Shown here: in pieces, positions 36,974 to 55,100 of the stretch
Layout of the letters: every line of letters starts with the position of its first letter
Numbering within the stretch: the first letter of the stretch is position 1
Source: an uncultured Bacteroidales bacterium
GTDB lineage: Bacteria > Bacteroidota > Bacteroidia > Bacteroidales > CAIXZF01
Assembly (NCBI GenBank): GCA_903923925.1
Contig: CAIXZF010000035.1
Location: 1-64,000, forward strand
DNA: 64,000 nucleotides
Reading direction: 5' to 3'
Position numbers and translations under genes: made by a program
Notes under the pieces: generated by a model
What the model was told of the DNA's origin: nothing
Databases searched by the model: none
Seen by the model: only the letters and a program-made list of their open reading frames with translations

Positions 36974-37318
36974 TTACATTAAATCTCCTAATGGACCAAG
37001 ATTAATGTTTAAATCCCTGTCGGTGAGATTAAAATGTTTTTTAAGTTCTTCCATTTTCATTTCGAGCTTCATCAATGTTTCACCAAGTCGTTCAATTTCT
37101 TCATCTGTTAATGATCCACCGTCAACCCTGCGCATTGCCTGTTTTTCAACTAATTTTCTGATCAACTCAACTAGAGTGAGCACCAGTTTTGCCAGACCAG
37201 AATCTGCATTTTCAGGTGTGAGTTTTAGCTTGGAATCATCGATGTTGGCAAGTTTTCCGATTTCTTCTGAAATAGTTTCAAGTGATCCGGTATTGAATAG
37301 AATTTTATTTTCACTCAT
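36974..37318 (-). CDS. gvpK: gas vesicle protein GvpK
   Basis: 114 residues. The core LTLVELIRKLVEKQAMRRV followed by GGSLTDEEIERLG is the GvpK family signature. GvpK is a minor protein needed for gas vesicle formation; its exact role is not settled. Last gene of the gas vesicle cluster, 7 bp after a GvpF/L gene. The charged C-terminus ends in LGPLGDLM. Confidence 0.93.
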   Translation of the reverse strand: MSENKILFNTGSLETISEEIGKLANIDDSKLKLTPENADSGLAKLVLTLVELIRKLVEKQAMRRVDGGSLTDEEIERLGETLMKLEMKMEELKKHFNLTDRDLNINLGPLGDLM

Positions 37319-37325
37319 CGGGAAG

Positions 37326-38081
37326 TTACTTAAGTGTTAATTCAACAAAACTATATGGAGGCCAGGGTCCGGTGAGTATGAAATTTAACCCCGGATGTTT
37401 CTTCTGTAAGGTCTGAATATTTTCAATTAGCAAAGGATCTTTCTCTTTTTCAAGCAGAAAAACAGAATCTATTAGTTGTTTCGCAGATGTCATTTTTGTA
37501 AACCTGCTATCTGTGCTTAAGCTGGAAAGGCAATCGGTGATTTCTGTAATAACAGTTTCAACGTAGCGCAATAGCATTTCCTCATACCTGTGCTCTTTGA
37601 GCTTTTTGTTAATGTAATCTGTAAAAACTGAATTTTTTGATTCTATTGATTTATGGGGTGGTGATACTTCTTTTACCTCAGATTTCTTTAAAAGATCTTG
37701 TTTTAACTTTTCCGCATCACAAAATATCTTCAAGCCGAATTCAACTTTATTTTCAACTTTCTGAAGATTTTTCTGAAATTCAGTGTAATTATTTTCCAGC
37801 ATATTTTTAATTGCTTCATTTGATTCCATTTTGGAGCCAAATCGCATTGGCAGGAGTGTGTATTTTTGAAGAAGTTTTTCAATTACACCAGCATAGGCAA
37901 TCACATCTAACTTGTCTGGAATTACATTCGTTTCGTTAATATTTCCAACAACTGCAGTAATCTCCTTAAATGGAACTGCGTATACCAACTCTTCTCTGAT
38001 ACCCTTGATGTCCTCAGGAATAGTATTTAAATTTCCTGAGCCAGGCTTTGTTTGCAATACGGCATAAATCAACATTGCCAT
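37326..38081 (-). CDS. GvpF/L family gas vesicle assembly protein
   Basis: 251 residues of the GvpF/GvpL family, with hallmark LLPMRFGS in the middle and the C-terminal motif GPWPPYSFVEL. Family members are accessory proteins; GvpF binds GvpA in other systems and several form early assembly complexes. It starts 2 bp after the GvpA/J/M family gene upstream, so it is almost certainly translated from the same message. One of five paralogues here; I cannot assign F or L. Confidence 0.9.
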   Translation of the reverse strand: MAMLIYAVLQTKPGSGNLNTIPEDIKGIREELVYAVPFKEITAVVGNINETNVIPDKLDVIAYAGVIEKLLQKYTLLPMRFGSKMESNEAIKNMLENNYTEFQKNLQKVENKVEFGLKIFCDAEKLKQDLLKKSEVKEVSPPHKSIESKNSVFTDYINKKLKEHRYEEMLLRYVETVITEITDCLSSLSTDSRFTKMTSAKQLIDSVFLLEKEKDPLLIENIQTLQKKHPGLNFILTGPWPPYSFVELTLK

Positions 38082-38083
38082 AG

Positions 38084-38293
38084 CTATTCAGCTTTTTTCG
38101 TTCCTGATTTTAATTGATCCATTGTTTCAACGGAACTCAACAATAACTTAACACCAAGGTAAACCAGATCAATATCTGCAACCGAAATTACGATATCTCC
38201 AGTCAGAATTACTCCTTTATTTAAAACCCTGTCGAGCAATTCAAGAATTGTGATGTCTTTAGATTGATCGATAACGTTATTGTTCATCTGCAA
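38084..38293 (-). CDS. GvpA/J/M family minor gas vesicle protein
   Basis: 69 residues. The core ILELLDRVLNKGVILTGDI then VADIDLVYLGVKLLL is the GvpA-type fold. The divergence from gvpA and the GDIVISVADIDL segment place it with the GvpJ/GvpM/GvpS branch rather than with the shell protein. Such proteins are needed in small amounts, probably for nucleation or the cone tips. It ends 2 bp before the next GvpF/L gene and follows the previous one by 3 bp. A second in-frame ATG lies two codons in. Confidence 0.9.
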   Translation of the reverse strand: MQMNNNVIDQSKDITILELLDRVLNKGVILTGDIVISVADIDLVYLGVKLLLSSVETMDQLKSGTKKAE

Positions 38294-39101: not shown

Positions 39102-39374
39102 TTATTGGTCGTCGCTATCCACACCTGCAAAAGAACTCAATCTTTCAAAACTCGTAATCTCAAGGTTTTCATCCATTTTAACAGTATAAAAAAGGCGCAC
39201 CTGTTTAGGTGGAAGATTCATGGATTTAAGGAATGAATCATCTTCGTAAACTTCTGCAACAGCATTCCAGATTTCCTTTACCTTTTCAATTTTTACTACT
39301 GTTACATCATAACAGCTAATATTTTCTTTTAAAAAACTAACTACAGTTTTCTTGACATCAATAATATTACTCAT
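39102..39374 (-). CDS. gvpO: gas vesicle protein GvpO
   Basis: 90 residues matching the GvpO pattern: an N-terminal helix, a W-x-AVAEVYEDDSF strand region, then a tyrosine-containing VRLFYTVKMDENLEITSFERL segment. GvpO is essential for gas vesicle formation in haloarchaea, where it may bind nucleic acid or other Gvps. A good ribosome-binding site (GGAGGA) precedes the start. Confidence 0.82.
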   Translation of the reverse strand: MSNIIDVKKTVVSFLKENISCYDVTVVKIEKVKEIWNAVAEVYEDDSFLKSMNLPPKQVRLFYTVKMDENLEITSFERLSSFAGVDSDDQ

Positions 39375-39437: not shown

Positions 39438-39674
39438 TTACGCTTTTTTGTTTTTTTCTCTGATAGCGTTGAGTAGGTTCAATAACTCATCTTCTCTTCT
39501 GTCATATTCTTCTTCATCAATTTCATCCATTTCGAATTTCAATTGCAATGCCATAAGTCTTTCTTTGATCGACCCTTCATCAGAGAATTCTTTTTCAATT
39601 ACTTCATTTATTTTATCCGCAATAAAAAGCATCCCTTTGAACGGGGCAAGCAATAAATCGTCTAATAAAAACAT
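39438..39674 (-). CDS. gvpG: gas vesicle protein GvpG
   Basis: 78 residues. The N-terminus MFLLDDLLLAPFKGMLFIADKI and the acidic coiled-coil tail (DEIDEEEYDRREDELL) are diagnostic of GvpG, an accessory protein encoded beside GvpF/L in most gas vesicle clusters. Starts 1 bp after the upstream GvpF/L gene, so translation is likely coupled. Confidence 0.93.
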   Translation of the reverse strand: MFLLDDLLLAPFKGMLFIADKINEVIEKEFSDEGSIKERLMALQLKFEMDEIDEEEYDRREDELLNLLNAIREKNKKA

Positions 39675-39675
39675 C

Positions 39676-40458
39676 TTAAACTCCTTTCGTATTAATTACA
39701 AGATTCACGAAGTTATATGGAGGCAGGGTTCCAACGTATTTAAATGTCATGAAATGTCCATATTTCTCATCTAAATTATAGACAGCTTTATCAAAATCGT
39801 GTTCAGAAGTGTTTTTAATGAGAAATGCGGCATTCAGAATCATCATTTCACCGTAATTGTCATTTATTTTTAAATCATCTGAAAGCGGTGTTAAAACATC
39901 AAGTATTGTGTTTTTATGGGTTACAGTTTCTTTTTTAAGAGCCTCGGCAACCATTTCACCGATTTTCATTCTTTGGTAATGTGTTTTGTCAGCAGGCAGG
40001 TTTATTAGTTTTTCGCGCAGGCTTTTAATATCATCATACTTATCAATGATATTCTCGTACATAGCAGCTTCCTGGGCAAGAACTTTAAGTCCCAATTCTT
40101 TTTTTCCTTCCATTTTTGTTAGCATCTCATCAAATTTCCGATAATCTTTCTCAATAATTCGGAGAACTCCCTCGTCATCATTATGTTCAGAGATTGTAGA
40201 GAATCTAACAGGAAGTACTGTATAATGTTTCATTACCTCCTCAAGCACTTTTTCATGGGTTATCATATTCACTCTTCGTGCTTCATAAATAATAACCGGC
40301 GAGTTACTTACAATTGCAGTTATTCCTTTATAAATTATTCCGTAAACCAAATCAGCACGTTTACCCATGCCAATGTTTCCATAGTTAATTGGTTCGGAAT
40401 TTCTTATGATACCATAAATGTATTTTCCTTCTTTCTGAGTTTCAGGTTCGATGCTCAT
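39676..40458 (-). CDS. GvpF/L family gas vesicle assembly protein
   Basis: 260 residues. The N-terminus (GKYIYGIIR) and motifs VLPVRFSTI and GTLPPYNFVNL are those of GvpF/GvpL. It directly precedes gvpG, an order (F/L then G) common in other clusters, so this may be the GvpF counterpart; that assignment is inference. Confidence 0.9.
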   Translation of the reverse strand: MSIEPETQKEGKYIYGIIRNSEPINYGNIGMGKRADLVYGIIYKGITAIVSNSPVIIYEARRVNMITHEKVLEEVMKHYTVLPVRFSTISEHNDDEGVLRIIEKDYRKFDEMLTKMEGKKELGLKVLAQEAAMYENIIDKYDDIKSLREKLINLPADKTHYQRMKIGEMVAEALKKETVTHKNTILDVLTPLSDDLKINDNYGEMMILNAAFLIKNTSEHDFDKAVYNLDEKYGHFMTFKYVGTLPPYNFVNLVINTKGV

Positions 40459-40480: not shown

Positions 40481-41254
40481 TTACAATTCCCATTTTTCAG
40501 GAAAAATTTTAAGGTCAATAAAATTGAAAATTGGCAATTGAGTCGCATATACAAAGTCGCAACGATTTTCATATTTGTTTCCAAGGTCCAACATAATATT
40601 ATCGAATTCAACTTCTCTTCCACTGTTTACCAGGAAAGCAGTATTCATAAACATGGAATCACCGTTTGTTTTGTTCAGTTTATACTCGAAAATGGAGCGT
40701 CGGAATGCATCAATTATTATATCTGATTCTTCTTCTTTTTTCTCAATTAACGCATGTTTTACAAGGTTTCCTGCTTCAACAATTTTAAGATTCCGCTGCT
40801 CTTTATCATCAATATTTTCAATTTCTGCCCGGATCTTTTGTAATTCTTCATGCTCTTTATCAATCTCCTTATAAATAACCCCCATATCCTTCCACATTCC
40901 CCTTACATTGAGCTCAACTTTATTCTCGAATTGTTTAAGCAATTCCATGAACTCACTGTATCTGCGATTTAAAAGATTCCGGATTTCGTCGGGAGTCGCT
41001 GCTATAGTGCCAAATCGGATAGGAAGTACACTTATAAACTCTTTCATTACTGTTTCCAAAACTTTCTGATGAGCAAGCATGTTTTCAGGGTTCACAACAA
41101 ATCTACTCAGCGGATGATCGCTTACAACCATACATAATCCATCAAAACCAATGGTAGATACTAAATCTTCTCTGCCACCAACCCCAATTGCTCCAAAATT
41201 TGCATCATAATCTGATGCTATTATACAATAAATATATTTTCCGTCACGCTGCAT
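40481..41254 (-). CDS. GvpF/L family gas vesicle assembly protein
   Basis: 257 residues. N-terminus GKYIYCIIAS, middle motif VLPIRFGTI, C-terminus TQLPIFNFIDLKI. A charged helical hairpin region lies between residues 120 and 170. One base separates it from the J-domain GvpF/L gene upstream. Confidence 0.9.
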   Translation of the reverse strand: MQRDGKYIYCIIASDYDANFGAIGVGGREDLVSTIGFDGLCMVVSDHPLSRFVVNPENMLAHQKVLETVMKEFISVLPIRFGTIAATPDEIRNLLNRRYSEFMELLKQFENKVELNVRGMWKDMGVIYKEIDKEHEELQKIRAEIENIDDKEQRNLKIVEAGNLVKHALIEKKEEESDIIIDAFRRSIFEYKLNKTNGDSMFMNTAFLVNSGREVEFDNIMLDLGNKYENRCDFVYATQLPIFNFIDLKIFPEKWEL

Positions 41255-41255
41255 A

Positions 41256-42296
41256 TTAGTCCTTTATTTTTACGAGTGTAAGACTTTTAATTACATCTTT
41301 CTTAGCCAGTGAAATTATTTCAGCATTTGAGGATTGCTTTACGGCGGCTGTATAATCCTGTAATGTATGATATGCCTTTTGAATCGTGTTAAACTTATCA
41401 CCATCATCTGTGTCCTGATAGGTGTCAGGATGGAACATTTTTGCCTTGCCCAGATATGCTTTTTTTATTTCACTTTCTGAAGTTTCTTCATTTAAACCGA
41501 GCTCTGCTTTAGCCCAGCTAACATGTTCAGGTAATAATTCCTTTACTTCTATTGTATAAAAACTATAGCATGGTAAAGGACCAACAATTTTAAAATTCAG
41601 CAGTCCATGGTAAGTTTCGTCCAGAATATCGATAAGATGTTCAAATTTTTCCTTTTTATTTCTATGGATCAGAAAAGCCGAGTTAAGTATCATCTGGTCG
41701 TTCATTACATCATGCGTATGGATATCAATACTAATCGATGTTAATGAATCAAGGATAGCTAATTCTACCAATTTATTTTTCTCGTCTATTTTTTCCTGAA
41801 CAAGCATACCAACCATTACCTGGTCAACCTGGGAAATGCTTGCTTTATTTGTCATCAGACTTTCTTTTAGTGTAACAATATCGGGATGATTAGCCAATTC
41901 CCTGAGCATTTCGGGAAAGTCTGCCCAACTTACTACCAGATCAATTTCTGTGAGGTACTCAATTTTTTTTAAGCTGTCGATAATCAGGTTGTAACCCTCA
42001 GAAAGAATTTTTAATACCTCTTCTTTTGAACTTCTTATGGTGCCAAGTTGCATGGGTATGAACATGGCAAAATCTTTACTCTGCAGTTCTTCAATTGTTT
42101 GCTGATGATGAACAAGCAAATGCCCAAGTGACTCACGGTCATGAAAATCCAGATCCATATCATCACGATCCGAGACAATTGCCGAAATGTTTTCGTAGGG
42201 TATAGTATAAACCTTGGTCTTTTCTAGCGACCTGAACATGTCCGGACTATAGAAGTTCGGTACAATCCCGTAAATATAAATTCCTTTTGTTCCCAT
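41256..42296 (-). CDS. GvpF/L protein fused to a C-terminal J domain
   Basis: 346 residues. Residues 1-255 are a GvpF/L domain (GIYIYGIVP, MFIPMQLGTI, GPLPCYSFYTI). Residues about 260-325 are a DnaJ-type J domain with the HPD motif at 289-291 (KMFHPDTYQ) between the expected helices. J domains stimulate the ATPase of Hsp70 (DnaK), so this protein probably recruits the cell's DnaK to GvpA or to another GvpF/L client. No dnaK is in the window. A separate DnaJ-type zinc finger is encoded in the same cluster. Confidence 0.9.
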   Translation of the reverse strand: MGTKGIYIYGIVPNFYSPDMFRSLEKTKVYTIPYENISAIVSDRDDMDLDFHDRESLGHLLVHHQQTIEELQSKDFAMFIPMQLGTIRSSKEEVLKILSEGYNLIIDSLKKIEYLTEIDLVVSWADFPEMLRELANHPDIVTLKESLMTNKASISQVDQVMVGMLVQEKIDEKNKLVELAILDSLTSISIDIHTHDVMNDQMILNSAFLIHRNKKEKFEHLIDILDETYHGLLNFKIVGPLPCYSFYTIEVKELLPEHVSWAKAELGLNEETSESEIKKAYLGKAKMFHPDTYQDTDDGDKFNTIQKAYHTLQDYTAAVKQSSNAEIISLAKKDVIKSLTLVKIKD

Positions 42297-42346: not shown

Positions 42347-44509
42347 TTAAAGCTTCTTTGTTGCATTTTGTTTCAAAACTAATTGAATTGCCAGGTCGAA
42401 GTGCGATTCCATGATAAATATTTCTCCTGTTATTTCTTCCCGTTTTTCCCGGTTTTTATCAATTAAGTCGCGAATTGCCAGCATTGCGGCCTTGCGGCAA
42501 ATAAACTCAATATCAGAACCAGTGAGGCTTTCAGTTTTTAATGCAAGCTTGCTAAGGTTCACTTTTTTACCCAGTGGTTTATTTTTTGTATGGATGCCGA
42601 ATATCTTTTCTCTTGTCTTTACATCTGGCAGTGGAAGTTCGAAAATCAGGTCAAACCTTCCGCTTCTTAGCAGGGCAGGGTCAATTAAATCGATTCTATT
42701 GGTGGCGGCAAGAACAATAACACCTTTAAGATCCTCAATCCCGTCCATTTCGGTAAGGAATTGTCCGATAACTCTTTCGATAACTCCGGAACCTGAACCA
42801 TCTGTACTCCGCCTTGGAGTCAGGCTGTCGATCTCATCAAGAAACAAGATACAGGGTGATGCCTGTTTTGCCATTCTGAAGAGTTCTCGGACACCTTTCT
42901 CAGATTCACCGATATAACGGCTTAGGATCTGAGGCCCTTTTACGGAAATAAAGTTAACGCCACTTTCGCTGGCCAGTGCCTTTGCCAAATACGTCTTACC
43001 CGTTCCAGGCCTGCCATGCAGAATTATACCCTTTGGGGGTTTTGTGTCTGCTTGTTTAAATAGATCAGCATACTGCAATGGCCATTCAACCGTCTCTTTT
43101 AATGCTTCTTTTATCTCATCCAAACCACCTACATCTTCCCATTTAACATCAGGAACCTCTACAAAAACTTCCCGGATTGCTGAGGGCTCAACCTCTTTCA
43201 TTGCATCCTGAAAATTATCCATGGTCACTTCAAGCGACATCAGAAGCTCGTACGGAATTTCGGATAATTCAAAATCAATTTGAGGCAGAATCTTCCTTAA
43301 AGCAGTCATTGCGGCTTCCCTTGCCAAAGCTTCCAGGTCTGCACCTACAAAACCGTGGGTAATTTCAGCCAATTTTTCCATATCTACATCTATAGATAAT
43401 GGAATACCTCTTGTATGAATATGCAGAATTTCAAGCCTGCCTTTTTTATCGGGTATGGAAATTGATATTTCACGGTCGAATCGTCCAGGCCTTCTTAAAG
43501 CTGGATCAATAGAATTTGGGATGTTGGTAGCTCCGATTACAATTACCTTCCCCCTCGATTCTAATCCATCCATTAAGGATAATAATTGGGCAACAACACG
43601 TTTTTCAACCTGCTTTTCGCCACCCATATCTTCACGTTTTGGTGCAATAGCATCAATCTCGTCAATAAAAATAATGGCGGGTGCATGTTGCTGGGCTTCT
43701 TCGAAAATTTTCCGGATGCGGCCTTCGCTTTCTCCATAGAATTTGCCCATTATCTCTGGACCAGAAATATTAATAAAATAGGCATCGGTTTCATGAGCTA
43801 CTGCTCGAACGATAAGGGTTTTTCCGGTTCCCGGAGGGCCATAAAGAAATACTCCTTTTGGTGGCTGCACTCCAAGACGTTCGAAAATCTCAGGATATTT
43901 CAACGGAAGCTCAATCATTTCACGAATCCGCTGAACCTGGTTCCCAAGTCCTCCTATATCTTCGTAGGATACTTTGCTCTTGCCTTCACTATCCTGTTTC
44001 GTTAATTCCAGTTGCAAAGATGTTTCAGGACCTATCAGTACTACTCCCTCTGGATTACATCCTGTAACTGTATAATTAACAGTCCTTGATCCAAACAAGG
44101 TGGCTTTTACCTTGTCGCCTTTCATCACTGGCAAACCATTAATCAGAGAGCCAATGTATTTTGCATCATCACTTTTAAAAAGGGAACCAGAGATTGTGTC
44201 TGGTTTAAGTTTTATTTTAACTGCCTTACGGCAAGTAGTTTTAATAATCTTAACTTTCTCGTCAATTCCTGCTAACGCATTTTCCCTGCTTATACCATCA
44301 ATCTGAATTATACTCTTATCTCTGTCCTCAGGATAACAAGGCATAACTTTAACCGGCGTCTGCCTTTTACCTTCAATTACAATAATATCGCCACTTTCCA
44401 GACCTATAAGTTTCATGTCTTTCGGGTCAATTCTGGCAATAGCGCGACCCACATCTTTTACAAGAGCTTCTTTAACACGAAGTATAGTATCATCTGATAT
44501 TTTGCCCAT
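42347..44509 (-). CDS. CDC48/VCP-type double AAA+ ATPase
   Basis: 720 residues. N-terminal double-psi barrel and CDC48 domain 2 (about 1-175), first AAA module with Walker A GPPGTGKT (224-231), Walker B IIFIDEID (279-286) and pore loop KFYGE; second AAA module with Walker A GRPGTGKT (499-506), Walker B ILFLDEID (554-561) and pore segment SRYIGESE. This is the organisation of archaeal and eukaryotic CDC48/p97 unfoldases, which pull proteins out of complexes. CDC48-like genes occur in some gas vesicle clusters. A role in remodelling or dismantling shells, or in clearing misfolded GvpA, is inference. It lies 6 bp downstream of the ArsA-like gene. Confidence 0.92.
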   Translation of the reverse strand: MGKISDDTILRVKEALVKDVGRAIARIDPKDMKLIGLESGDIIVIEGKRQTPVKVMPCYPEDRDKSIIQIDGISRENALAGIDEKVKIIKTTCRKAVKIKLKPDTISGSLFKSDDAKYIGSLINGLPVMKGDKVKATLFGSRTVNYTVTGCNPEGVVLIGPETSLQLELTKQDSEGKSKVSYEDIGGLGNQVQRIREMIELPLKYPEIFERLGVQPPKGVFLYGPPGTGKTLIVRAVAHETDAYFINISGPEIMGKFYGESEGRIRKIFEEAQQHAPAIIFIDEIDAIAPKREDMGGEKQVEKRVVAQLLSLMDGLESRGKVIVIGATNIPNSIDPALRRPGRFDREISISIPDKKGRLEILHIHTRGIPLSIDVDMEKLAEITHGFVGADLEALAREAAMTALRKILPQIDFELSEIPYELLMSLEVTMDNFQDAMKEVEPSAIREVFVEVPDVKWEDVGGLDEIKEALKETVEWPLQYADLFKQADTKPPKGIILHGRPGTGKTYLAKALASESGVNFISVKGPQILSRYIGESEKGVRELFRMAKQASPCILFLDEIDSLTPRRSTDGSGSGVIERVIGQFLTEMDGIEDLKGVIVLAATNRIDLIDPALLRSGRFDLIFELPLPDVKTREKIFGIHTKNKPLGKKVNLSKLALKTESLTGSDIEFICRKAAMLAIRDLIDKNREKREEITGEIFIMESHFDLAIQLVLKQNATKKL

Positions 44510-44515
44510 GGCTTC

Positions 44516-45466
44516 TTAATTGAATTGTTGACTTCCAAAAAGACCTCTTTTTAATCTGTTCAAGGATTCTAATCCTCTAATTTCTGTTTCAAAGACAGGA
44601 ACCTCAACTCTGTTCAATGACTGAAAATTATCGTTGATCTGCTCAAGATATTTTGACTGTCCTGCTTTTCTGTTCCTACAGAAAGCGCAATCATCAGAAA
44701 CCATAACATTGTTTACAATTATCTGCTGAGCAACTATTCCTGTGCTGTTTAAATCGGAAAGTAAACGATTTGTTTCTGAAATTGCCATTGATTCAGGAAT
44801 ACAAACCGGAATAAACTCGCATTTCGTTTTATCCCGCAATATGTTTTCAATCCGTTTAACGGTTTTTTTCAGGTTTAACAAAAATGTATCTACATCATCA
44901 GGTACATAAGACCCGGCAAAACTGGTTATCATGTAACGGTATTTCCATCTCATTTTTGCGGCTACTTTTATCCAGGCATCTAACATTTTTGGTGAAGATA
45001 TCAAACGCAAAGCATGACCAGTTGGAGCCGTATCCACAACATACTTTTCATAGTTTCCTTCTTCCATGAAATCAATAATTGTTTTAAAACTCATGATTTC
45101 ATCAATTCCCGGGATCGATAATGTTAACATTTCATCAATGTCATCCTTATCGAAATTGGAAGACGTCACTAATAATTTCTTTAATGCATTATGATGTGCA
45201 GCTTTGAAAATTGTCAGAGCTTCATCGGCAACAACCTCTATAGCAGAGAGTTTTGCTGCACCTGAAACTTTTACTACATTAAATCCGATTTGTTGCTCAA
45301 GGCAATCCGAAACAGAATGTGCCGGATCGGTAGAGATTAACAAGGTTTCAAAATTCTCTGATAAAGCAAGGGCTGTAGCAATGGCACAACTGGTTTTACC
45401 GACACCACCTTTCCCGCCGAAAATAATAAGTTTCAGCTCGTCGTTCCCCAAGCCAGTTAGTGCCAT
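44516..45466 (-). CDS. ArsA/Get3-family ATPase of the gas vesicle cluster
   Basis: 316 residues. Deviant P-loop GKGGVGKTS, switch I STDPAHS, switch II DTAPTGHALRL, and a CxxC motif (CAFCRNRKAGQ) like the pair that joins the two halves of Get3-type dimers through zinc. Single ATPase domain, as in Get3 rather than the duplicated bacterial ArsA. No arsenic genes are nearby. Get3 carries hydrophobic tail-anchored proteins, so a role in carrying the hydrophobic GvpA is plausible but inferred. Five bases separate it from the hsp20 gene upstream. Confidence 0.9.
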   Translation of the reverse strand: MALTGLGNDELKLIIFGGKGGVGKTSCAIATALALSENFETLLISTDPAHSVSDCLEQQIGFNVVKVSGAAKLSAIEVVADEALTIFKAAHHNALKKLLVTSSNFDKDDIDEMLTLSIPGIDEIMSFKTIIDFMEEGNYEKYVVDTAPTGHALRLISSPKMLDAWIKVAAKMRWKYRYMITSFAGSYVPDDVDTFLLNLKKTVKRIENILRDKTKCEFIPVCIPESMAISETNRLLSDLNSTGIVAQQIIVNNVMVSDDCAFCRNRKAGQSKYLEQINDNFQSLNRVEVPVFETEIRGLESLNRLKRGLFGSQQFN

Positions 45467-45471
45467 GACAA

Positions 45472-45990
45472 TTATTTTTTTATCCTGATTTCAAGAATTC
45501 CATTTGTAAATTTGTGCTGCAGGTTTGATTTGCTGACTTTAGAAGGAAGCAGAAGTTCTTTGCGGTATGTCCTGTTTTTGCTAACAGCAGCTATTTCCAG
45601 AATATCTTCTTTAAGATCAATTTTCAGATCGGTTTCTTCAATTCCCGGCATTTCCGCGATTACGACAATTTCATCATTCTCGTCAAAAATATCGGTGATT
45701 GGTTCACGCTCTTCATCAACTTTAGGGCCTTCAGGCGTTTTTTTAATATTGCCGAAAGTCTCTACTTTTGGAGTTCCACCTCCTGCAGTATTTATTGTGA
45801 AACCATAAACCCCTTTCATTCCCTTTTTAATATGATCTAGGTTGATAGATCCTTCTTTGCTCATGGCACCTTTATCCTCCAGCTTCCCGGCAAGGTCAAC
45901 AAGCTTTTCTATTCCACTGAACAATCCACCAAGTCCGAAAAGATCAAAAGCTGAGTCGTCTTTCTTATCCTTATTTGTATCGTTTTTCAT
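45472..45990 (-). CDS. gvpH: GvpH-like Hsp20 (alpha-crystallin) small heat-shock protein
   Basis: 172 residues. N-terminal part with a GLGGLFSGIEKLVDLAGKLE helix and a GVYGFTINTA segment seen in gas vesicle GvpH proteins, then an alpha-crystallin domain (about 95-172: PITDIFDENDEIVVIAEMPG, and NGILEIRIKK at the end). Hsp20 proteins hold unfolded clients without ATP, and GvpH binds GvpA in haloarchaea. There is no C-terminal IxI tail beyond EIRIKK. Confidence 0.88.
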   Translation of the reverse strand: MKNDTNKDKKDDSAFDLFGLGGLFSGIEKLVDLAGKLEDKGAMSKEGSINLDHIKKGMKGVYGFTINTAGGGTPKVETFGNIKKTPEGPKVDEEREPITDIFDENDEIVVIAEMPGIEETDLKIDLKEDILEIAAVSKNRTYRKELLLPSKVSKSNLQHKFTNGILEIRIKK

Positions 45991-46015: not shown

Positions 46016-46315
46016 TTAGGTCAGCTTGTTCATCGCTTCGAGTTTTTCCAGTCGGGCCTCCATAGCGCTATTTTGTTGAGTCAATTCTTTTTCTCTTGCC
46101 TTTGTTGATAGGTAAGTGTCTTCTTGCCACCAGTTGATCCCCATTTCCATGGCTTTATCCACTGAGGCCACCAGTAATCGTATTTTTATTGTCAATAGGT
46201 CAATATCTGCAATCTGGATTTTAATATCGCCTGCAATTACGATCCCTTTATCGAGCACTCTTTCCAGAATATCGGCAAGGCCGGTCGCATTAATTGAATG
46301 AGTTGGTTCAGCCAT
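46016..46315 (-). CDS. gvpJ: GvpA/J/M family minor gas vesicle protein, GvpJ-like
   Basis: 99 residues. GvpA-type core (LADILERVLDKGIVIAGDI, then IADIDLLTIKIRLLVASVDKA) followed by a longer tail with GINWWQEDTYLS and a charged C-terminal coiled coil. The longer tail is typical of GvpJ. Minor structural protein, probably involved in nucleation or shape. The F/L/J/M letter assignment is less certain than the family. Confidence 0.85.
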   Translation of the reverse strand: MAEPTHSINATGLADILERVLDKGIVIAGDIKIQIADIDLLTIKIRLLVASVDKAMEMGINWWQEDTYLSTKAREKELTQQNSAMEARLEKLEAMNKLT

Positions 46316-46694: not shown

Positions 46695-47612
46695 CTATGT
46701 GTATTGTTCAATTAACTCATTAACGATAAATTTTACTTTTTCCTGATTGGTCTTTGATCCTATCCTGCTCGTTTCTGAAGTAAGAATGTCCTGGCAAATT
46801 TTTCTGAACATTTCTTTTGATTCTGATGGTGATGTGTTCAGTGTTGCAAGGGTTTTTGCAATCATTATTGAACCTCGTATGGTTGGGTCAAATTCGGTTT
46901 TTCCCGATTCCCGAAGTCCCCTTACGATCTTTACAATCTTCTCTGTGTCGTCAAATGAAAGACTGGATTTTGCCATTGTGATCTGCAATTCAGTATCATA
47001 ATCAAAATGATCAAGGTCCATGGTTACCATCCTGTCGCGTAGCGCATCCTGGGTACGGTTAACACCGGCATATTCTTCAGGATTTGATGTAAAAATTGCA
47101 CGAAAATCTGGGTGCACTTTCATATAGTAATCCTCTTCTTTGGCAGCTGATGTACTTAGCATTCTCTCCTGAAGAATAGGAAGAAGAATATTATTCGCTT
47201 CAGGTCGCGACCTGGTAAATTCATCATAAATCAGAGTAAACCCGTTTTTTACTGCAATAGTAAGACGGTTGTTAACCCACTGTTTACTCATATCCTCCTC
47301 ATATTTATGAACAGAATGAATAAACTTGTCATCCAATCTTTTATATTTATAGCCTTGTTCACTGCCAATTAAATCCGATGTTTTGTACTCTGCATCTCCA
47401 TGTATTATTACAACGGGTCTGCCAATTTTGCTCGCAAGATGCATTGCCACTGTTGTTTTTCCTGTTCCTGATGGCCCTCTGAAATGCACTGGGAATCCGG
47501 CTTTTATATAGGTTAGTCCTCGGCTGGTTATGTCTTTTATATAATCAGTCTCCACAAAATTCGACATTGGCTTTAGTTCAAGCACCGTGTTCATTTCGTT
47601 ATTATTGCTCAT
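46695..47612 (-). CDS. gvpN: gas vesicle protein GvpN, MoxR-type AAA+ ATPase
   Basis: 305 residues. Walker A GPSGTGKT (46-53), Walker B in FTLIYDEFTRSRPE, sensor TSNPEEYAG, and arginines in QDALRDRMVTMDLDHFDYD. Full length for GvpN, which is needed for gas vesicles to widen to normal size and acts with GvpA or GvpC in other bacteria. Confidence 0.95.
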   Translation of the reverse strand: MSNNNEMNTVLELKPMSNFVETDYIKDITSRGLTYIKAGFPVHFRGPSGTGKTTVAMHLASKIGRPVVIIHGDAEYKTSDLIGSEQGYKYKRLDDKFIHSVHKYEEDMSKQWVNNRLTIAVKNGFTLIYDEFTRSRPEANNILLPILQERMLSTSAAKEEDYYMKVHPDFRAIFTSNPEEYAGVNRTQDALRDRMVTMDLDHFDYDTELQITMAKSSLSFDDTEKIVKIVRGLRESGKTEFDPTIRGSIMIAKTLATLNTSPSESKEMFRKICQDILTSETSRIGSKTNQEKVKFIVNELIEQYT

Positions 47613-47668: not shown

Positions 47669-47854
47669 TTATTTTTCAAATTCTGATTTGGGTAGTTGAG
47701 ACATTGTAGCCAGATAAATAATTCGGGCTTCTTCAATGTCTTTTATTATTTGTTCCTTTACTGCCAGGAATTCTGATTTTCTTGTGTTGAACTTAATAAA
47801 CGCTTCTTGTCTCTTAAGCAGGCTTTTCTTGATATTGAATCCCGGGTTATTCAT
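47669..47854 (-). CDS. 61-residue charged helical protein, unknown
   Basis: The open frame is longer (to 48043), but its upper part overlaps the zinc-finger gene and reads like out-of-frame noise. From the ATG at 47854 it encodes a 61-residue highly charged helix (FNIKKSLLKRQEAFIKF ... AVKEQIIKDIEEARIIYLA), 22 bp after the stop of the zinc-finger gene. Size, spacing and amphipathic pattern suggest a real small accessory gene of the cluster. Not recognised. Confidence 0.55.
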   Translation of the reverse strand: MNNPGFNIKKSLLKRQEAFIKFNTRKSEFLAVKEQIIKDIEEARIIYLATMSQLPKSEFEK

Positions 47855-47876: not shown

Positions 47877-48188
47877 TTATTGCAACCCAATACCTTTGCA
47901 TCTTGTACATGGTAAACCATCACTCGATTTACCTGTACCTTTGCAATAAGTACATTTACTATTGCCTTGGCTGTAATTATTTCCCTTTCCACCACAAACA
48001 ATACATGGAACTCTTGCTCCAAGTGGGTTCTTGCCAGAACCATTACAGAAAATACATTTTTTCATAGGCTCTGAAACCTCTGTTGTTCCTGAACCACTAC
48101 AAACCATGCAATCCGAAATTGATGAAAGCAACTCAAAGGGATCCTTACCGGTCCCTTCACAAAATGCACAATTGATTTTTTTTGTCAT
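47877..48188 (-). CDS. DnaJ-type zinc-finger protein with six CxxCxGxG motifs
   Basis: 103 residues containing six CxxCxGxG-type motifs (CAFCEGTG, CMVCSGSG, CIFCNGSG, CIVCGGKG, CTYCKGTG, CTRCKGIG) and almost nothing else. DnaJ itself has four such motifs forming two zinc sites; six would give three. No J domain here: the only J domain in the cluster is fused to a GvpF/L protein. Probably a zinc-binding chaperone helper that holds unfolded polypeptide; this is inference from the DnaJ domain. It follows a long hairpin downstream of the GvpC-like gene. Confidence 0.82.
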   Translation of the reverse strand: MTKKINCAFCEGTGKDPFELLSSISDCMVCSGSGTTEVSEPMKKCIFCNGSGKNPLGARVPCIVCGGKGNNYSQGNSKCTYCKGTGKSSDGLPCTRCKGIGLQ

Positions 48189-48275: not shown

Positions 48276-49484
48276 TTATTTAATCGGATAGTAAATGTTT
48301 TCTATTTTTTGAACTTTACCTTCGTCCAATAAGGTTTTTGCAGTAAATCCAAGTTTCATACGTGTTTCGCCCAGCGGTCCTTCCATTTCAGAAATCTTCA
48401 CTCCTTTGGGATGATTCATCAGGTAGGCCAGCATCTTTTGCTCAAGTGTTTTTGGTGCTTCCGGGACTATAACAGCTTTTGGTTCCTCTTTTACAACAAC
48501 AACTTCAACTGCTTTTACCGGGGTTTCCTTAATAACCTCTGCTGCTGCTTCTATTTTTACTTCTTTTTTCTCAACTTTTTTAGCAGCTTCTTTAGGTGCT
48601 TTAACGATTCCTGTCTTCCTCAATTGTGCAATGCTTTCTTGCATATTGTTCCAGGCATCAATTCCACCTTGTCTGTCTTGAGCAAAATCACCAATCATAC
48701 CGCTGGTGTTTTTCTGAATAGCTTTTACTTCATTCCGGATTCCTTTAATTGACTGATGAATCCCTTTCATAATACCATTATACTGACTTAGTCTCTCTAA
48801 TTCACCTTTGTTAAGGTCTTTTCTGAGATTCTGAGCCATTTTTTGGTTTTCTTTGCTGATCTCTGTTAATCTTTTCTGGAATCCATTCAGAAGCGTTCTG
48901 GTGTAGTCAACCCTTTCTGCAAGATTCTTAGATAACTCAGTTCTCAGTTCTGCTGACATTGCAAGATGTTCCTTTTCGAAGGTATCAAGCATTTCATTTG
49001 TTTCTTTAAAAATCGCAAGAACTTCATCGTTAATACTTTTAATATCAACGTTGATCTCTTTCATCATAGAATTAAATTCTTTCATCCTGATTTTCTCATC
49101 TTGTTTTCTGTCTGAATTTCCTTTTGCAAAGAATTTCTTCAAATCACCAGCCATTTCAGCTCTTTCAACAGAAAACTCGTTGATCATGTTAAAAGTGGAA
49201 TTCTGAATTTCCACAACTTCTTTCTGAATAGAATTGATTGTGTTATGGATACCTGACATTAACCCATTAAATGTACTCAGCCTTTCCTTTTCCCCAATGG
49301 CTAGGCCTTTTCGTAGAGAAGCTGCGTTGGCATTTAAAACAGCAGCCATTTCCTGATGGTCTTTTCTGAATCCATCGAGGGTTTTCTGTACGTCATTCAC
49401 AAGCTCCTCATTTTCTATGATACGTTGTTTGAATGAAGCAAGAATTTCTTCGCTCAAAGTTTTCATTTCTGATGTTAGTCCCAT
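48276..49484 (-). CDS. GvpC-like helical repeat protein with C-terminal winged helix
   Basis: 402 residues. Residues 1-280 are long helices with imperfect repeats: [FY]N-x-[LMI]M-x-x-I at 72-79, 137-144 and 235-242, and E/K-MA-x-x-L-type segments at 45, 110, 175 and 215. A Lys/Glu/Val-rich linker follows (about 290-345), then a compact domain (about 350-402) resembling a winged helix (MLAYLMNHPKGVKISEMEG). Position after gvpA, helical repeats, high charge and a good ribosome-binding site fit GvpC, the outer strengthening protein, but the repeats are not the 33-residue cyanobacterial type. The C-terminal domain is unusual for GvpC. Confidence 0.65.
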   Translation of the reverse strand: MGLTSEMKTLSEEILASFKQRIIENEELVNDVQKTLDGFRKDHQEMAAVLNANAASLRKGLAIGEKERLSTFNGLMSGIHNTINSIQKEVVEIQNSTFNMINEFSVERAEMAGDLKKFFAKGNSDRKQDEKIRMKEFNSMMKEINVDIKSINDEVLAIFKETNEMLDTFEKEHLAMSAELRTELSKNLAERVDYTRTLLNGFQKRLTEISKENQKMAQNLRKDLNKGELERLSQYNGIMKGIHQSIKGIRNEVKAIQKNTSGMIGDFAQDRQGGIDAWNNMQESIAQLRKTGIVKAPKEAAKKVEKKEVKIEAAAEVIKETPVKAVEVVVVKEEPKAVIVPEAPKTLEQKMLAYLMNHPKGVKISEMEGPLGETRMKLGFTAKTLLDEGKVQKIENIYYPIK

Positions 49485-49526: not shown

Positions 49527-50135
49527 TTAATTTATCTCCGTTATTATTTGATTTTGTAAACACCTGATATCTTTGATCTGAATCTGATCCCCCTTTTCAA
49601 TTAATGTTTCCAAACATTCCATCAATTTGTTGTGCATTTGTTGAAAATCCAAAATTGTTTTCATTACCGTTTCCTTTCTCATTTCCTGTTGTTTAGAAAT
49701 CAGCGAAAGTTGCTCTTTTACTATTGCTATTTTTTCACTGGCATCCGGTGAGCTTATATCTTTAATACCCAAAAGACTGTTTTTAAGCAATTGGGCAGTT
49801 TCTTTCTGAGTTTCAATAAAGTTCAGAAACTGGGTTTCAGCTTCTTTCTCTTTTGCATCAAGTGCGGATAAAATACCCGACATCATCATGTTATAATCTT
49901 TCTTTCTTAATGAACTATTTTTGGCAATAGTTTCACAAAGTGTTGTATTTATTACTTCTCTCTTCTTTCTGAGATCGGTTAAAGAGTTATGGACATTATC
50001 GAACAGAGAGTGAGATGATTCTGTTATATTTTCTGATGATTGGAAAGCATTCTGGATTTTTTGAATCCTGCTTTCATACGAGCTGATAATGTTGCTGAAA
50101 AAACCATCAATATTTAATTCTGTCCTGGTATTCAT
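49527..50135 (-). CDS. coiled-coil gas vesicle cluster protein related to the GvpC-like protein
   Basis: 202 residues, nearly all charged helix, no signal peptide. A LRKKDYNMMMSGI segment (76-88) matches the repeat motif of the neighbouring GvpC-like protein (ERLSTFNGLMSGI, ERLSQYNGIMKGI), so the two appear to share a repeat family. Located between gvpA and the GvpC-like gene. It could be a second shell-binding protein or an accessory protein; the function is not known. Confidence 0.7.
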   Translation of the reverse strand: MNTRTELNIDGFFSNIISSYESRIQKIQNAFQSSENITESSHSLFDNVHNSLTDLRKKREVINTTLCETIAKNSSLRKKDYNMMMSGILSALDAKEKEAETQFLNFIETQKETAQLLKNSLLGIKDISSPDASEKIAIVKEQLSLISKQQEMRKETVMKTILDFQQMHNKLMECLETLIEKGDQIQIKDIRCLQNQIITEIN

Positions 50136-50264: not shown

Positions 50265-50471
50265 TTATGCGGCTTTAGCAGTTAATCCAATTGCTTCAGC
50301 ATATTTCAGGTATGTTTCAACAGAGGCAACAACGATTCTTGCTTCAATTGCAAGTAGTTCGATACCTACTAATGATACTCTTACCCAAGCATCAACTACA
50401 ACACCTTTGTCAAGGATACGGTCAATTACTTCTACTAAACTTGACGATCCGATTGTCTTTTCTACTGACAT
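50265..50471 (-). CDS. gvpA: gas vesicle major shell protein GvpA
   Basis: 68 residues, near-canonical: [20 protein letters not shown], then [20 protein letters not shown] and [12 protein letters not shown]. It polymerises into the ribbed, gas-permeable, water-excluding wall. The helix-strand-strand-helix core is complete; the C-terminal tail is short (TAKAA). First gene of the cluster, with a strong ribosome-binding site and a sigma-54-type promoter. A 129-bp untranslated gap follows. Confidence 0.98.
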
Positions 50472-50730: not shown

Positions 50731-52125
50731 TTACTGATCTTCAACCTTACTTACGGTAATATCATACTTTTTCATTTTCCGTATCAGAGCATCACGCGTG
50801 ATTCCCAAAAGATCCGATGCTGCTTTTTGATTGAATTCGCACTTTTGAAGTGCTTTGCGGACAATATTTATCTCAACCGTTTTCAAATCAAGGATCGAAT
50901 CCTGGCTTGAGGACGTTTCTTTCTTATGGGGTTTAATCCTGAAATCAGAAATTCCTAATAAGTTTCCTTTGCAGAGTATTATGGCTCGCTCGGTCATATT
51001 CCTTAATTCACGCACATTTCCGGGAAAATCATATTGGGCCAGAGTGTCAAACACTTCTTTCGAAAGGCTGATATTGGGTTTATTGAATTTTTGAGAATAA
51101 ATTTCAACAAAGTGGTTAATTAATGGCTTAATGTCTTCAGGCCGCTCCCGGAGTGATGGGATGTGAATATGAAGAGTATTGAGCCTGTGAAGAAGGTCGA
51201 GCCTGAATTGTTTATTCTCAACCCTTTTCTCAATGTCATGATTTGTTGCTGAAATTATTCTGAAGTCAGTGTGTATTAAATTGGTATCACCTACTCGCGT
51301 AATCACCTTTTCTTCAGTTGCCCGTAAAAGCTTTGCCTGAAGGTTGAATGGCATGTCTGCGATTTCATCCAAAAATAATGTCCCTTTATTGCATAGTTCA
51401 AAATAACCCATTTTGTCGGTAACTGCACCAGTAAAGGAACCTTTTTTGTGACCGAAAAATTCACTCTCAAGAAGAGAGTCTGTAATCGCACTGCTGTTAA
51501 CTGCACATAATATATGGTCTTTCCTTAAACTGGAATAATGGATAATACGGGCGATGTTTTCCTTTCCGGTTCCGCTTTCACCTGTTATGAGTACATTGGC
51601 TTCCGGATAGTTGGCTGCTGTTACTGCCTGCTCAAAAACTTCGAGTATCTGTGCACTAACACCTATAAATTGCCGCTCAATTTTTTCTTCCAGAGCTTTT
51701 GAAATCAGAGAGTTCTTTTCCTCCAGATGCTTTACCTTCCGTTGTACTTCAAGATATTTCTGAGTACGCTCAATCGCAATCTGGATATCAATATATCTGA
51801 ATGGCTTACGCAAATAGTCAAATGCACCAAGTCGCATTGCTTTTATTACTGTATCCATATCTCCGTGAGCCGAAACTATTATAACCTCCATAAACGGAAA
51901 TTGACTTTTAACTTCTTTAAGGATATCTAGCCCATTTACGCCTGGTAACCTAACATCCAGAATTAAAAGATCAATGTTATATTGGTTTAATATTTGCCTT
52001 CCTACTCCAACAGTATTGGCTTCATAGCAGTCTATTTCTGAATCGAGAAAAAATCCACTCAATTCTTCTGTAAATTGCTTCTCGTCATCAAGTATCAGGA
52101 TTTTAATCTTGTCACGTACAGCCAT
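50731..52125 (-). CDS. NtrC-type sigma-54-dependent response regulator
   Basis: 464 residues. Receiver with D57 (LLILDVRLPGVNG), sigma-54 AAA+ domain (about 152-380) with Walker A GESGTGKE (182-189), the sigma-54 contact loop GSFTGA (229-234), Walker B LFLDEIAD, and a C-terminal Fis-type helix-turn-helix (NQKAASDLLGITRDALIRKM). Phosphorylation should switch on its ATPase and open sigma-54 promoters. It lies 4 bp after the PAS sensor kinase gene and directly upstream of the -24/-12 promoter of gvpA, so it is the likely activator of the gas vesicle operon; that link is inference from position. Confidence 0.95.
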   Translation of the reverse strand: MAVRDKIKILILDDEKQFTEELSGFFLDSEIDCYEANTVGVGRQILNQYNIDLLILDVRLPGVNGLDILKEVKSQFPFMEVIIVSAHGDMDTVIKAMRLGAFDYLRKPFRYIDIQIAIERTQKYLEVQRKVKHLEEKNSLISKALEEKIERQFIGVSAQILEVFEQAVTAANYPEANVLITGESGTGKENIARIIHYSSLRKDHILCAVNSSAITDSLLESEFFGHKKGSFTGAVTDKMGYFELCNKGTLFLDEIADMPFNLQAKLLRATEEKVITRVGDTNLIHTDFRIISATNHDIEKRVENKQFRLDLLHRLNTLHIHIPSLRERPEDIKPLINHFVEIYSQKFNKPNISLSKEVFDTLAQYDFPGNVRELRNMTERAIILCKGNLLGISDFRIKPHKKETSSSQDSILDLKTVEINIVRKALQKCEFNQKAASDLLGITRDALIRKMKKYDITVSKVEDQ

Positions 52126-52129
52126 ATTC

Positions 52130-55100
52130 TTATTTCTTATGGATTTCGATTACTAATTCAACCTTAGTCCCGTTAATACTGTCACTGTCGATATTTATAG
52201 TACCGTTCATTTCTTTAATAATTTGATAACAAATTGATAATCCCAAGCCCGTGCCTTTACCTTCTTCTTTTGTTGTATAAAAAGGGAGCAGGATATTGTT
52301 AATATCGTCTTTGCTTATACCAATTCCATTGTCGGTAACTTCAACAATAAGGATTTGTCGTTTACTGTATGTTCTGATGCCCACTACCATGTCATAGTAT
52401 TCTTCTTGACTGTTCTTCTTTTCTATTACGGCATCTTTGGCATTATTCAGAAGATTTACAATAACCTGCTCAAATTTATAAGTGTTACCTACTATTGGAG
52501 GAATTAGTTTTTCAAGATTAAGAATTAATTGGATTCCGAGATGTTTAAACTGCTCCATTATCATTGAGGCAGCATTCTCCACACTTATGTTGATATCGAA
52601 GTCTGATGAAATATAATTGTTATCACTTCTCGAAAAATCCCTAATATGGTCTATAATATTGCGAATGCGGATTATATTGTCAAAAATTTTTGCCGATTTG
52701 GTTTTAATAAAATCAATGTCAATTACATCATTTCTATCGGCTTCAAAAAGAACTTTATCCATAACCATAGAAATGATATTCAGTGGTTGGTTTATCTCGT
52801 GGGCAATACCTGCTGCCATTTGTCCGAGATTTGCCATTCGATCTGCATGAAACTGCTTCGTTTCCATTAACTTTCGGTAAGAAATGTCCCGGATAATTAC
52901 CATGAATGACAATGGTTTGCCTTTCTGATCCTGTATTAAAGTGACACTTGTTTCAGTAGCAAGTATAGAATTGTTCTTTTTCTTAATTTTTAACTCAATA
53001 TTCTGGGCCAGTCCTTCATTTAATGTCTTGAAAAGAATTTCGCGTATCGTGTTCTTTTCCCCTGCCGGAACAAATTTAAAAAATCTGATGCCTACCAGGT
53101 CATCTCTGTTTATTGCACCAAATATTTCGAGCCCGATCTCCGAAACCTCTGTTATCATTCCTCTCAGGTCAATCAATACAATGCCGTCAGGGGAGGAGTT
53201 AAGGATCGTTTTATATTTTTCTTCAGTAATTTTAATACTTAAAGCTGCTTGCTTTAATTCTGTGATGTCTTCCGAAATACCCAGGAGATATTCAGGCTCT
53301 CCTGAAGCATTGAGAATAGGCACCTTTCTGGTGTGAAGTACACGTACACCCTTGTTTTTTGTTTGAATAAACTCTTCGGCAATGTCAATCTTCTCCTTTA
53401 ACTGTAATACACTTCTGTCTTTTTCTGTGAAACCGTCTGCTTCTGCTTTAGAAAAGAAATCATAATCACTTTTCCCAATAATTTCCTCTTTTGAAATACC
53501 CAGGAGTTCCTGTCCTGCCTGATTTAATCGTACAAATTTTAGTGTTTCTGCTTCCTTTATAAATATCATGTCAGGCAAATTTTCTACAATTGAATCCAGA
53601 AAATTATTCATCAAAAGAATCTCGTCCTGTTCTAACCTGCGCTGTGTAATGTCCTGAACAGTTCCAAAAATCTTTGTTGCCTTTCCTTTATCATTATATT
53701 CAAATTTTCCATCAGCGGAAAGATAATGAATTGATCCGTCCTTGTGAATTACCCGGTATTCAACAGATAGCGATTGGTAACCTTTAAGATTTAAGTTCAA
53801 GCTATTTGTGAACAGATCAACATCATCCGGGTGGATCAGGCTAAGGATGGATTCAGGTTTCTGATCAAATTCGCCTGGATTAACATCATAAACTCTGTAC
53901 ATCTCTTTCGACCAAAAAATTGAATCATCAATCAAGTCCCATTTCCAGCTCCCTATATGCGCTATCCTCTGAGCCTCTTCAAGATTATGCTCACTCTCAA
54001 TTATTGCAGTCTCAGCAATTTTTCGTTTTGTAATATCATGAACAACAGTATATCTGAATTCGGTATCCTGAACGCTTATATTCTCAGATGACAATAATAC
54101 ATGTTTTATATCTCCGTTTTTTGCTATCAAGTCGGCCTCAAGATTGTCTGTATGTCCTTGCTCATCCGATTTTGAAATGAGTAATTCTATGTTTCCGGCT
54201 GTCAATATGCCTAATTCAACTGGAGTGTGCCCAATAATTTCATCCTTTTCAAATCCGAATAATCTAATAAAGGCTTCGTTTACTTCAACATATCTACCTG
54301 TGCTGATTTCTGTTAATCCACATGCTGAAGGATTGATATAGAAAACTTTGGAAAACTTTTCTTCAGAATATTTAATCTGAGTAATATCTTTACTCACTCC
54401 GAAGATGGCAGGTTTCCCATTCCAGAACCCATGAGAGACCCTTGTTTCCACTGGAATTTGTAAACCAGATTTTGTAACAATTGGAACAGCACAAAATTCT
54501 GCCTTTTTGTTTAGCATGTCCTCGATAATCTGAGCAGCTTCATTTCGGCGTTCAGATGGATGAACTGTCAATACATTCTGTCCGGCTAAATCCTCCCAAC
54601 TATAGCCAAGGCGTTTAATTACTGTTGTATTTGTATGCTCAATTGCCCCTTGTTCATTCAAAACAAACAGAAAATCATCGATCGTATTAAAAAATGTTTC
54701 GTAATTATGCCGGGTTTGTAATACTAAATTCTCCGTTTCTTTTCGCTCTGTAATATCTTTTGTAAAACCTAAAAACCGTTTATCGGATAACTTGACCCAT
54801 TCAACAGACCACCATCGTTTTGTCCCATCCTTTTTAATAAATTCTAAATCAACTTTTGCCGCACCCTTCTCTATCAACTCTTTAAAGTATCGTAAACCTG
54901 CAGCAAGGGATTCTTCCGGAAGAAGGTCTTCAATAGTCATACCTAAGAGCTCCTCCGCTGAATAACCGGTAATTCTGCAGGCAGATTCATTGACTTCTAT
55001 ATAGCGACCCTTCTCATCAGCTACAAAAACACCATCCGGCGCATAACTTATATAACTACGGTATTTCTTTTCACTGATTTTAAGCGCAGCATTCAGTACT

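Follow-up and report, generated by a model that had tools for sequence, protein, structure and literature searches.

Gas vesicles are usually described as structures assembled by their own Gvp factors. A gas-vesicle (gvp) cluster of an uncultured Bacteroidales bacterium raises the question of whether the Hsp70 system of the cell takes part: one of its genes joins a GvpL/GvpF protein to a C-terminal J domain, and another encodes a free-standing DnaJ-type zinc finger. The initial annotation had suggested that DnaJ functions are split between the two genes, and had proposed the fusion to tie DnaK directly to gas-vesicle assembly.

The window, i.e. the whole stretch of 64,000 nucleotides that was analysed (C35:1-64000), belongs to a genome of 4.6 Mb in 117 contigs and contains a run of 20 minus-strand genes from gvpA to gvpK. 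For comparison, 84,980 genomes were scanned with an alignment covering the last 149 residues of the fusion. The scan gave 192 relatives, and the best 80 of these were analysed; together with the window they make up the 81 loci referred to below. These 80 loci were ranked on the J-containing part, and hence the presence of the J domain was selected for and the identity of its HPD motif was not. The genes and features of the cluster are as follows.

36974-37318, minus strand: GvpK
37326-38081, minus strand: GvpL/GvpF paralogue FL_e
38084-38293, minus strand: GvpA-family protein of 69 aa
38297-39130, minus strand: GvpL/GvpF paralogue FL_d; start as given by the ORF tool, 29-base overlap with the next gene
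39102-39374, minus strand: conserved gvp-cluster protein of 90 aa, no Pfam match
39438-39674, minus strand: GvpG
39676-40458, minus strand: GvpL/GvpF paralogue FL_c, adjoining gvpG
40481-41254, minus strand: GvpL/GvpF paralogue FL_b, no J domain
41256-42296, minus strand: GvpL/GvpF-J fusion of 346 aa; GvpF-like part aa 5-247, J helices within aa 256-320, HPD at 289-291, last strand 340-344
41259-41279, minus strand: conserved C-terminal tail TLVKIKD of the fusion, aa 340-346, predicted strand
41424-41432, minus strand: HPD motif of the fusion's J domain, aa 289-291
42347-44509, minus strand: CDC48/p97-family double AAA ATPase (TIGR01243, 914 bits)
44516-45466, minus strand: single-domain GET3/ArsA ATPase (TIGR00345, 253 bits)
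45472-45990, minus strand: Hsp20 small heat-shock protein
46016-46315, minus strand: GvpA-family protein of 99 aa
46335-46649, minus strand: conserved gvp-cluster protein of 104 aa, no family over cut-off
46695-47612, minus strand: GvpN AAA ATPase (TIGR02640, 347 bits)
47669-47854, minus strand: small ORF of 61 aa, flanked by gvpN and the zinc-finger gene; relatives of it in 33 of 80 loci (best 80 of 192)
47877-48188, minus strand: DnaJ-type zinc-finger protein of 103 aa (PF00684); six CxxCxGxG motifs, three zinc sites expected
48276-49484, minus strand: gvp-cluster protein of 402 aa (cc402), no family over cut-off, repetitive by eye
49527-50135, minus strand: gvp-cluster protein of 202 aa, no family over cut-off
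50265-50471, minus strand: GvpA-family protein of 68 aa, the main shell protein by sequence

The cluster thus comprises three GvpA-family genes, five GvpL/GvpF paralogues, gvpG, gvpK, gvpN, the genes for Hsp20, the GET3/ArsA ATPase, the CDC48-family ATPase and the zinc finger, four proteins without a family over the cut-off and one 61-aa ORF. Given the small gaps between these genes (-29 to ~130 bases) on a single strand, the run probably forms one operon. A promoter scan was uninformative (48 sites found versus 45.8 expected); terminator-like sites numbered 17 versus 9.7 expected. Just upstream of gvpA, two further minus-strand ORFs (50731-52125 and 52130-55540) resemble, by eye, a response regulator of the sigma-54 type and a sensor kinase with multiple PAS domains, which may control the cluster. 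Several of the accompanying genes recur in the 81 loci (best 80 of 192 plus the window), many of which are cut by contig ends: close to gvpA, the 402-aa protein is conserved in 56 of them and the 202-aa protein in 54, and the CDC48-family ATPase was present in 75 and Hsp20 in 63. To our knowledge, CDC48/p97-family proteins are unusual in bacteria.

Within the fusion, the Pfam scan placed GvpL_GvpF (PF06386) at residues 5-247 (152 bits, over the cut-off) and DnaJ (PF00226) at residues 266-315 (46.9 bits versus a cut-off of 27.8); these were the only two Pfam families in the chain, with neither a zinc finger nor a DnaJ C-terminal domain. AlphaFold2 (mean pLDDT 91.5, pTM 0.82) modelled the protein as a GvpF part followed by a three-helix J domain (helices at 256-266, 274-288 and 296-320) and the strand at 340-344, with HPD falling between helices II and III. 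Searching the model with Foldseek retrieved the GvpF crystal structures 6l5d (E 1.6e-14) and 4qsg (E 1.2e-13) for the first part, and the J-domain structures 4j7z, 9dvi and 2dn9 for the second, the latter with a probability of 1.00 and E-values of only ~0.01-0.03. With both families over their cut-offs and HPD in place, the analysis confirmed that the gene at 41256-42296 (minus strand) encodes, as the initial annotation had it, a GvpL/GvpF protein bearing a J domain in its C-terminal part. Chance similarity or an assembly error as the source of the fusion was ruled out by its conservation across the 81 loci (best 80 of 192 plus the window).

In its fold and family match (aa 5-247), and in the company of gvpA, gvpG, gvpK and gvpN, the protein resembles established members of the GvpF/GvpL family (PF06386; 6l5d, 4qsg). 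Relative to GvpF chains with solved structures (250 and 253 residues), however, the J domain and the conserved tail strand are additional, and the four GvpL/GvpF paralogues of its own cluster possess neither. Class C (type III) J-domain proteins are defined by a J domain that comes without a zinc finger or a DnaJ C-terminal domain. The fusion is like them in bearing an HPD-containing J domain on an unrelated protein devoid of those two domains, and the genome's TerB-J protein is another representative with the J domain at its C terminus; what sets it apart is the domain joined to the J domain, which is an assembly factor of gas vesicles. As far as the open-access literature shows, the sequence would make it a class C J-protein of previously undescribed make-up.

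That literature, beyond whose scope lie most subscription papers and all preprints, yielded no description of a J domain on a Gvp protein among the matches listed. The accessible part of PMC2963123, from whose main text the word DnaJ is absent, describes ArsA and Hsp20 as members of the Polaribacter irgensii and Pelodictyon luteolum gvp clusters; the cluster of P. irgensii 23-P treated there is our locus L120 and of the same type as that in the window. Gas vesicles and DnaJ are both mentioned in PMC2405808, PMC4046663 and PMC2270826, whose available portions do not describe the fusion; the resemblance of GvpC to DnaK and DnaJ stated in PMC2270826 is a different matter. Because both Pfam families match, domain databases may well list the GvpL/GvpF-DnaJ combination.

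In the J domain, HPD was intact in 80 of the 81 fusion loci (best 80 of 192 plus the window), and H289, P290 and D291 were among the 20 invariant columns of a 65-row fusion alignment, from which L112 (HPD lost), L122 and L131 (both incomplete) and near-copies of >78% identity were omitted. Across the same 81 loci (best 80 of 192 plus the window), position 278 in helix II was Lys or Arg in 79 and position 281 was Tyr in 71, both of which we take to be DnaK contacts, and position 266 was Leu in 80. The residue following Tyr281, a position that is commonly basic in J domains, was Leu in 50 of the 81. The 15 residues preceding HPD carried a net charge of +2 in the window fusion and likewise in the genome's own DnaJ, and of +1 or +2 in 58 of 80 fusions. 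The tail, which contains the predicted strand, followed the consensus LVKIK[ED], with Val342 in 68, Lys343 in 70 and Ile344 in 68 of 80 fusions. All seven relatives scanned with Pfam had a J domain over the cut-off, the weakest scoring 28.0 bits. As to deviating copies, the fusion of L112 has LPE in place of HPD, and L075, a second locus of the same genome, keeps HPD; the fusion of L057 reads YPD and is truncated. L112 also contains three ORFs matching the 402-aa protein, and gvpN was not found at this locus; it is perhaps a decaying or repurposed copy.

The initial annotation had suggested looking for the same fusion in other gvp clusters, and it was found in many, including ones far from the window's own lineage. 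Taxon labels among the best 80 of 192 relatives include Bacteroidota (Polaribacter irgensii, P. filamentus), Chlorobiaceae, Ignavibacteriae, Spirochaetales, Kiritimatiellaeota, Phycisphaerales, Elusimicrobia, Desantisbacteria, Omnitrophota and Patescibacteria; as most of these are metagenome bins, an individual label may be mistaken. The fusion also occurs on a complete plasmid of the alphaproteobacterium Octadecabacter arcticus (29% identity over 92%, HPD present), where its J domain scores 28.0 bits versus the Pfam cut-off of 27.8. Closer to home, the full fusion was found in the window's own genome and in G013 among 98 genomes, namely its relatives and itself. In a sample of 395 genomes of the phylum, rich in Chlorobium types, 30 matched the fusion at E ≤ 1e-10, 20 of them with matches reaching the J region and 10 with the GvpF part only. 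HPD was kept in 20 of the 21 ORFs from these two surveys, the window included, the exception being that of L057.

A survey without selection for the J domain, in which 393 genomes of the window's order were searched with the paralogue FL_c (E ≤ 1e-10), gave 14 genomes with a match, of which 12 have a fusion with HPD (G000, G013, G493, G526, G606, G617, G674, G687, G700, G726, G736 and G750, with two copies in G674); the fusion was not found in the other two, G014 and G055. As these genomes mostly overlap the best 80 of 192, the survey serves as a check on selection and not as independent data. The J domain is thus not generally needed, given the 10 of 30 phylum matches confined to the GvpF part and the two of 14 order genomes without a fusion.

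To place the fusion among its paralogues, a maximum-likelihood tree was built from the GvpF parts of 93 proteins from 25 hand-chosen loci, with the L131 fusion left out as too short. All 17 J-bearing proteins formed one clade (support 100/99), which was recovered in 100% of 200 bootstrap trees. These GvpF parts come with eight phylum labels, and a single fusion event followed by spread is the simplest reading. Gene order around the fusion was almost constant in the 81 loci (best 80 of 192 plus the window), save for contig-cut ones; rearranged loci include L095, L140, L141 and L147. At L136, from a bin labelled 'Bacteroidia', J region and tail are identical in reading to those of the Chlorobiaceae locus L138, and L136 is probably a contamination of its bin.

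The other member of the supposed pair likewise proved to be what had been described, namely a separate 103-residue gene with six zinc-finger motifs. In the ORF scan it matched PF00684 with 36.6 bits versus a cut-off of 32.7, whereas a six-frame search scored the same place at 23.1, under the cut-off. A profile search for this zinc finger matched the DnaJ zinc fingers 1exk (E 7.5e-6), 6jzb and 2ctt, while its structure model (pLDDT 90.6) gave 11 weak Foldseek matches, including DnaJ, anti-TRAP and BSD2, none of them under E 0.001. Related ORFs numbered 43 in 42 of the 81 loci (best 80 of 192 plus the window), L110 having two. Six CxxC motifs were present in 41 of the 43, and the stricter CxxCxGxG pattern occurred six times in 29, five times in 12 and four times in two. 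All 12 cysteines were invariant in a 40-row alignment, which omits L069 (long start), L106 (cut) and one of the L110 copies.

With respect to its distribution, 54 fusion loci show both genes that flank the zinc finger (those of cc402 and GvpN); it is present in 39 and absent from 15, the latter including all nine Chlorobium-type loci of the 54 (L136 counted among them by sequence). Ten of the 393 order genomes have the zinc finger, each time among gvp genes; in G027, which has it, the contig ends after six gvp-type genes, so the place expected for a fusion is not covered. In the phylum sample, the window's own genome was the one of 20 fusion genomes with a zinc finger at E ≤ 1e-5. A widespread housekeeping role was rejected, as the 395 phylum genomes gave, at this threshold, the window's genome and G211 only, the match in G211 (45% over part of its length) lying on a 3.2 kb locus that shows no gvp gene by eye. 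The zinc finger was not found in 10 J-less loci; nine of these are smaller or cut clusters, and both flanking genes can be seen in L157 alone. L157, from G014, is of the same cluster type and is without the fusion, the paralogue FL_b and the zinc finger together, with the remainder in order. Where the status of the fusion is known, the zinc finger is always accompanied by it, but the fusion is often found without the zinc finger. The zinc finger is therefore more readily understood as a helper than as the obligate half of a split protein: most likely a separate assembly chaperone, and an optional one, belonging to the gvp cluster.

Is DnaJ split in this organism? The genome encodes a complete DnaJ of 382 aa that combines J domain, zinc finger and C-terminal domain and has an ORF that we take to be GrpE as its neighbour; DnaK (863 bits) and the TerB-J protein with its C-terminal J domain are encoded as well. 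In 16 fusion-bearing genomes of our choice, DnaJ exceeded the NCBIfam cut-off in 15, with only a fragment in G617. A split in the sense that no whole DnaJ exists was therefore rejected, and the corresponding claim of the initial annotation did not hold up; nor are J domain and zinc finger an obligate pair, given the 15 of 54 loci having the one without the other. A widespread free-standing DnaJ that complements loss of the fused J domain had been named as an observation that would refute the initial reading; of its two halves, the presence of a free-standing DnaJ is the one found, in 15 of 16 fusion genomes. The cluster resembles a type I DnaJ insofar as it encodes both a J domain and a DnaJ-type zinc finger; in contrast to type I, these lie on separate genes, no DnaJ C-terminal domain was detected among the 18 cluster proteins scanned, and a complete DnaJ is located elsewhere in the genome. 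Thus, 'split DnaJ' is wrong in its main sense, though cooperation of the two proteins in trans is possible.

J domains stimulate Hsp70 through HPD. That the fusion ties DnaK to gas vesicles, the remaining claim of the initial annotation, was strengthened: HPD is intact in 80 of 81 loci (best 80 of 192 plus the window), helix II has the same +2 charge as that of the genome's own DnaJ, and DnaK is encoded in the genome, from which it appears very probable that the fusion recruits DnaK. We consider it moderately probable that the fusion is a dedicated Hsp70 co-chaperone for gas-vesicle assembly, i.e. a class C J-domain protein with the GvpF/L domain as its client-binding part. In such a scheme, the GvpF-like part would bind hydrophobic GvpA-family subunits during their synthesis, and the tethered J domain would engage ATP-bound DnaK via HPD and helix II and trigger ATP hydrolysis. 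DnaK would then clamp the same subunit and keep it soluble, until the subunit is handed to a putative nucleation complex (GvpG, the other GvpF/L paralogues and GvpN) and enters the shell; GrpE would reset DnaK. For haloarchaea, the available text of PMC7688916 reports GvpF to be the only GvpA partner by split-GFP, and its authors suggest that GvpF may keep GvpA in solution. Similarly, for the system studied in PMC11445434, the main text of which makes no mention of DnaK or Hsp70, it was proposed that GvpF transiently chaperones the shell protein GvpA2. This partner evidence stems from other lineages, and, with five GvpF/L paralogues in the cluster, the fusion may bind another GvpA-family subunit or none. 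Also in favour of a co-chaperone role are the confident model of a J domain on a GvpF fold, the single clade, the near-constant gene order and the Hsp20, GET3-like and CDC48-like proteins encoded alongside; against it count the gvp clusters that do without a J domain, the loss of HPD in L112 and L057 and the Leu that mostly follows Tyr281. More tentatively, and on balance doubtful, this cluster type may encode a shell proteostasis line of its own, in which the fusion would act as a holdase summoning Hsp70, alongside the triple-zinc chaperone, Hsp20, the GET3-like ATPase (for hydrophobic segments) and the p97-like unfoldase, with this chaperone-assisted route inherited and exchanged as a block across many phyla.

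Other readings of the two proteins have to be weighed against this. Besides the ordinary DnaJ, gas-vesicle proteins could be served by a type I-like one composed of two pieces, the fused J domain and the free zinc finger, that act in trans. The DnaJ-like character of the zinc finger (PF00684; 1exk), its position within gvp clusters in 10 of the 10 order genomes having it, the joint loss of fusion, FL_b and zinc finger at L157, and the lack of the zinc finger from all 10 J-less loci, though only L157 among them shows both neighbours of the usual site, are consistent with such a partnership. Yet complete DnaJ accompanies the fusion in 15 of the 16 genomes tested, 15 of the 54 informative loci have the fusion by itself, as do all but one of the 20 fusion genomes of the (Chlorobium-rich) phylum sample at E ≤ 1e-5, the two genes are non-adjacent, the zinc finger has six motifs instead of four, and the DnaJ C-terminal domain is missing from the 18 cluster proteins scanned; we hence regard action in trans as quite unlikely. 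Plant BSD2 is an assembly chaperone that consists solely of a DnaJ-type zinc finger, with four motifs and two zinc sites. A free-standing chaperone of this kind, acting on gas-vesicle subunits without Hsp70, is a plausible identity for the zinc finger, at somewhat less than even chances: like BSD2 and other free-standing DnaJ-type zinc fingers it is a small protein made solely of CxxCxGxG modules, none of its 12 cysteines varies in 40 rows, its 11 weak Foldseek matches include BSD2 (6ekb) and anti-TRAP, and in all 10 order genomes having it it sits in gvp clusters. It differs from BSD2 in its six motifs and three expected zinc sites and in its gas-vesicle context; moreover, the structural match is weak (6ekb at E 0.33 and probability 0.14, nothing under E 0.001), and 15 of the 54 loci do without it. 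A BSD2-like zinc finger can coexist with a fusion that serves as Hsp70 co-chaperone.

For the fusion itself, an alternative to assembly is clearance: the targets to which it would bring DnaK, along with Hsp20 and the CDC48-like unfoldase, would be shell protein that is misassembled or in excess, or vesicles under dismantling. J-proteins also serve disaggregation, and the frequency of the CDC48-family ATPase (75 of 81) and of Hsp20 (63 of 81) at the loci (best 80 of 192 plus the window, many contig-cut) fits this reading. The available parts of PMC11445434 and PMC7688916, however, place GvpF at early steps of assembly, and on the Octadecabacter plasmid, whose gene table is incomplete, the cluster combines the fusion with Hsp20 while neither CDC48 nor ArsA is listed; clearance is unlikely in our estimate. 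Alternatively, the J domain may have ceased to work with DnaK and persist as a structural relic or docking surface. The prevailing Leu after Tyr281 (50 of 81; best 80 of 192 plus the window), the loss of HPD in L112 and L057 and the Octadecabacter J domain barely over the Pfam cut-off (28.0 versus 27.8 bits) would agree with such decay. Against it stand the retention of HPD in 80 of 81 loci of distant lineages (best 80 of 192 plus the window) and in the Octadecabacter plasmid copy, as well as a helix II charge equal to that of the genome's own DnaJ, which together render a relic very improbable.

A GvpF/L protein acting as Hsp70 co-chaperone would bear on how cells keep the very hydrophobic shell protein in solution and deliver it during gas-vesicle assembly, a process for which GvpF has already been proposed as shell-protein chaperone (PMC11445434, PMC7688916; accessible text). 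The J-domain link is easily missed, since the one annotated copy inspected, that of Octadecabacter, is named merely 'GvpL/GvpF family gas vesicle protein'. If the proposed role is true, engineers who express gas vesicles in foreign hosts may find that some clusters need a matching DnaK. A conserved, apparently functional Hsp70-recruiting domain on GvpF/L offers a one-residue handle (HPD) on the involvement of Hsp70, and suggests that building gas vesicles relies on the folding machinery of the cell.
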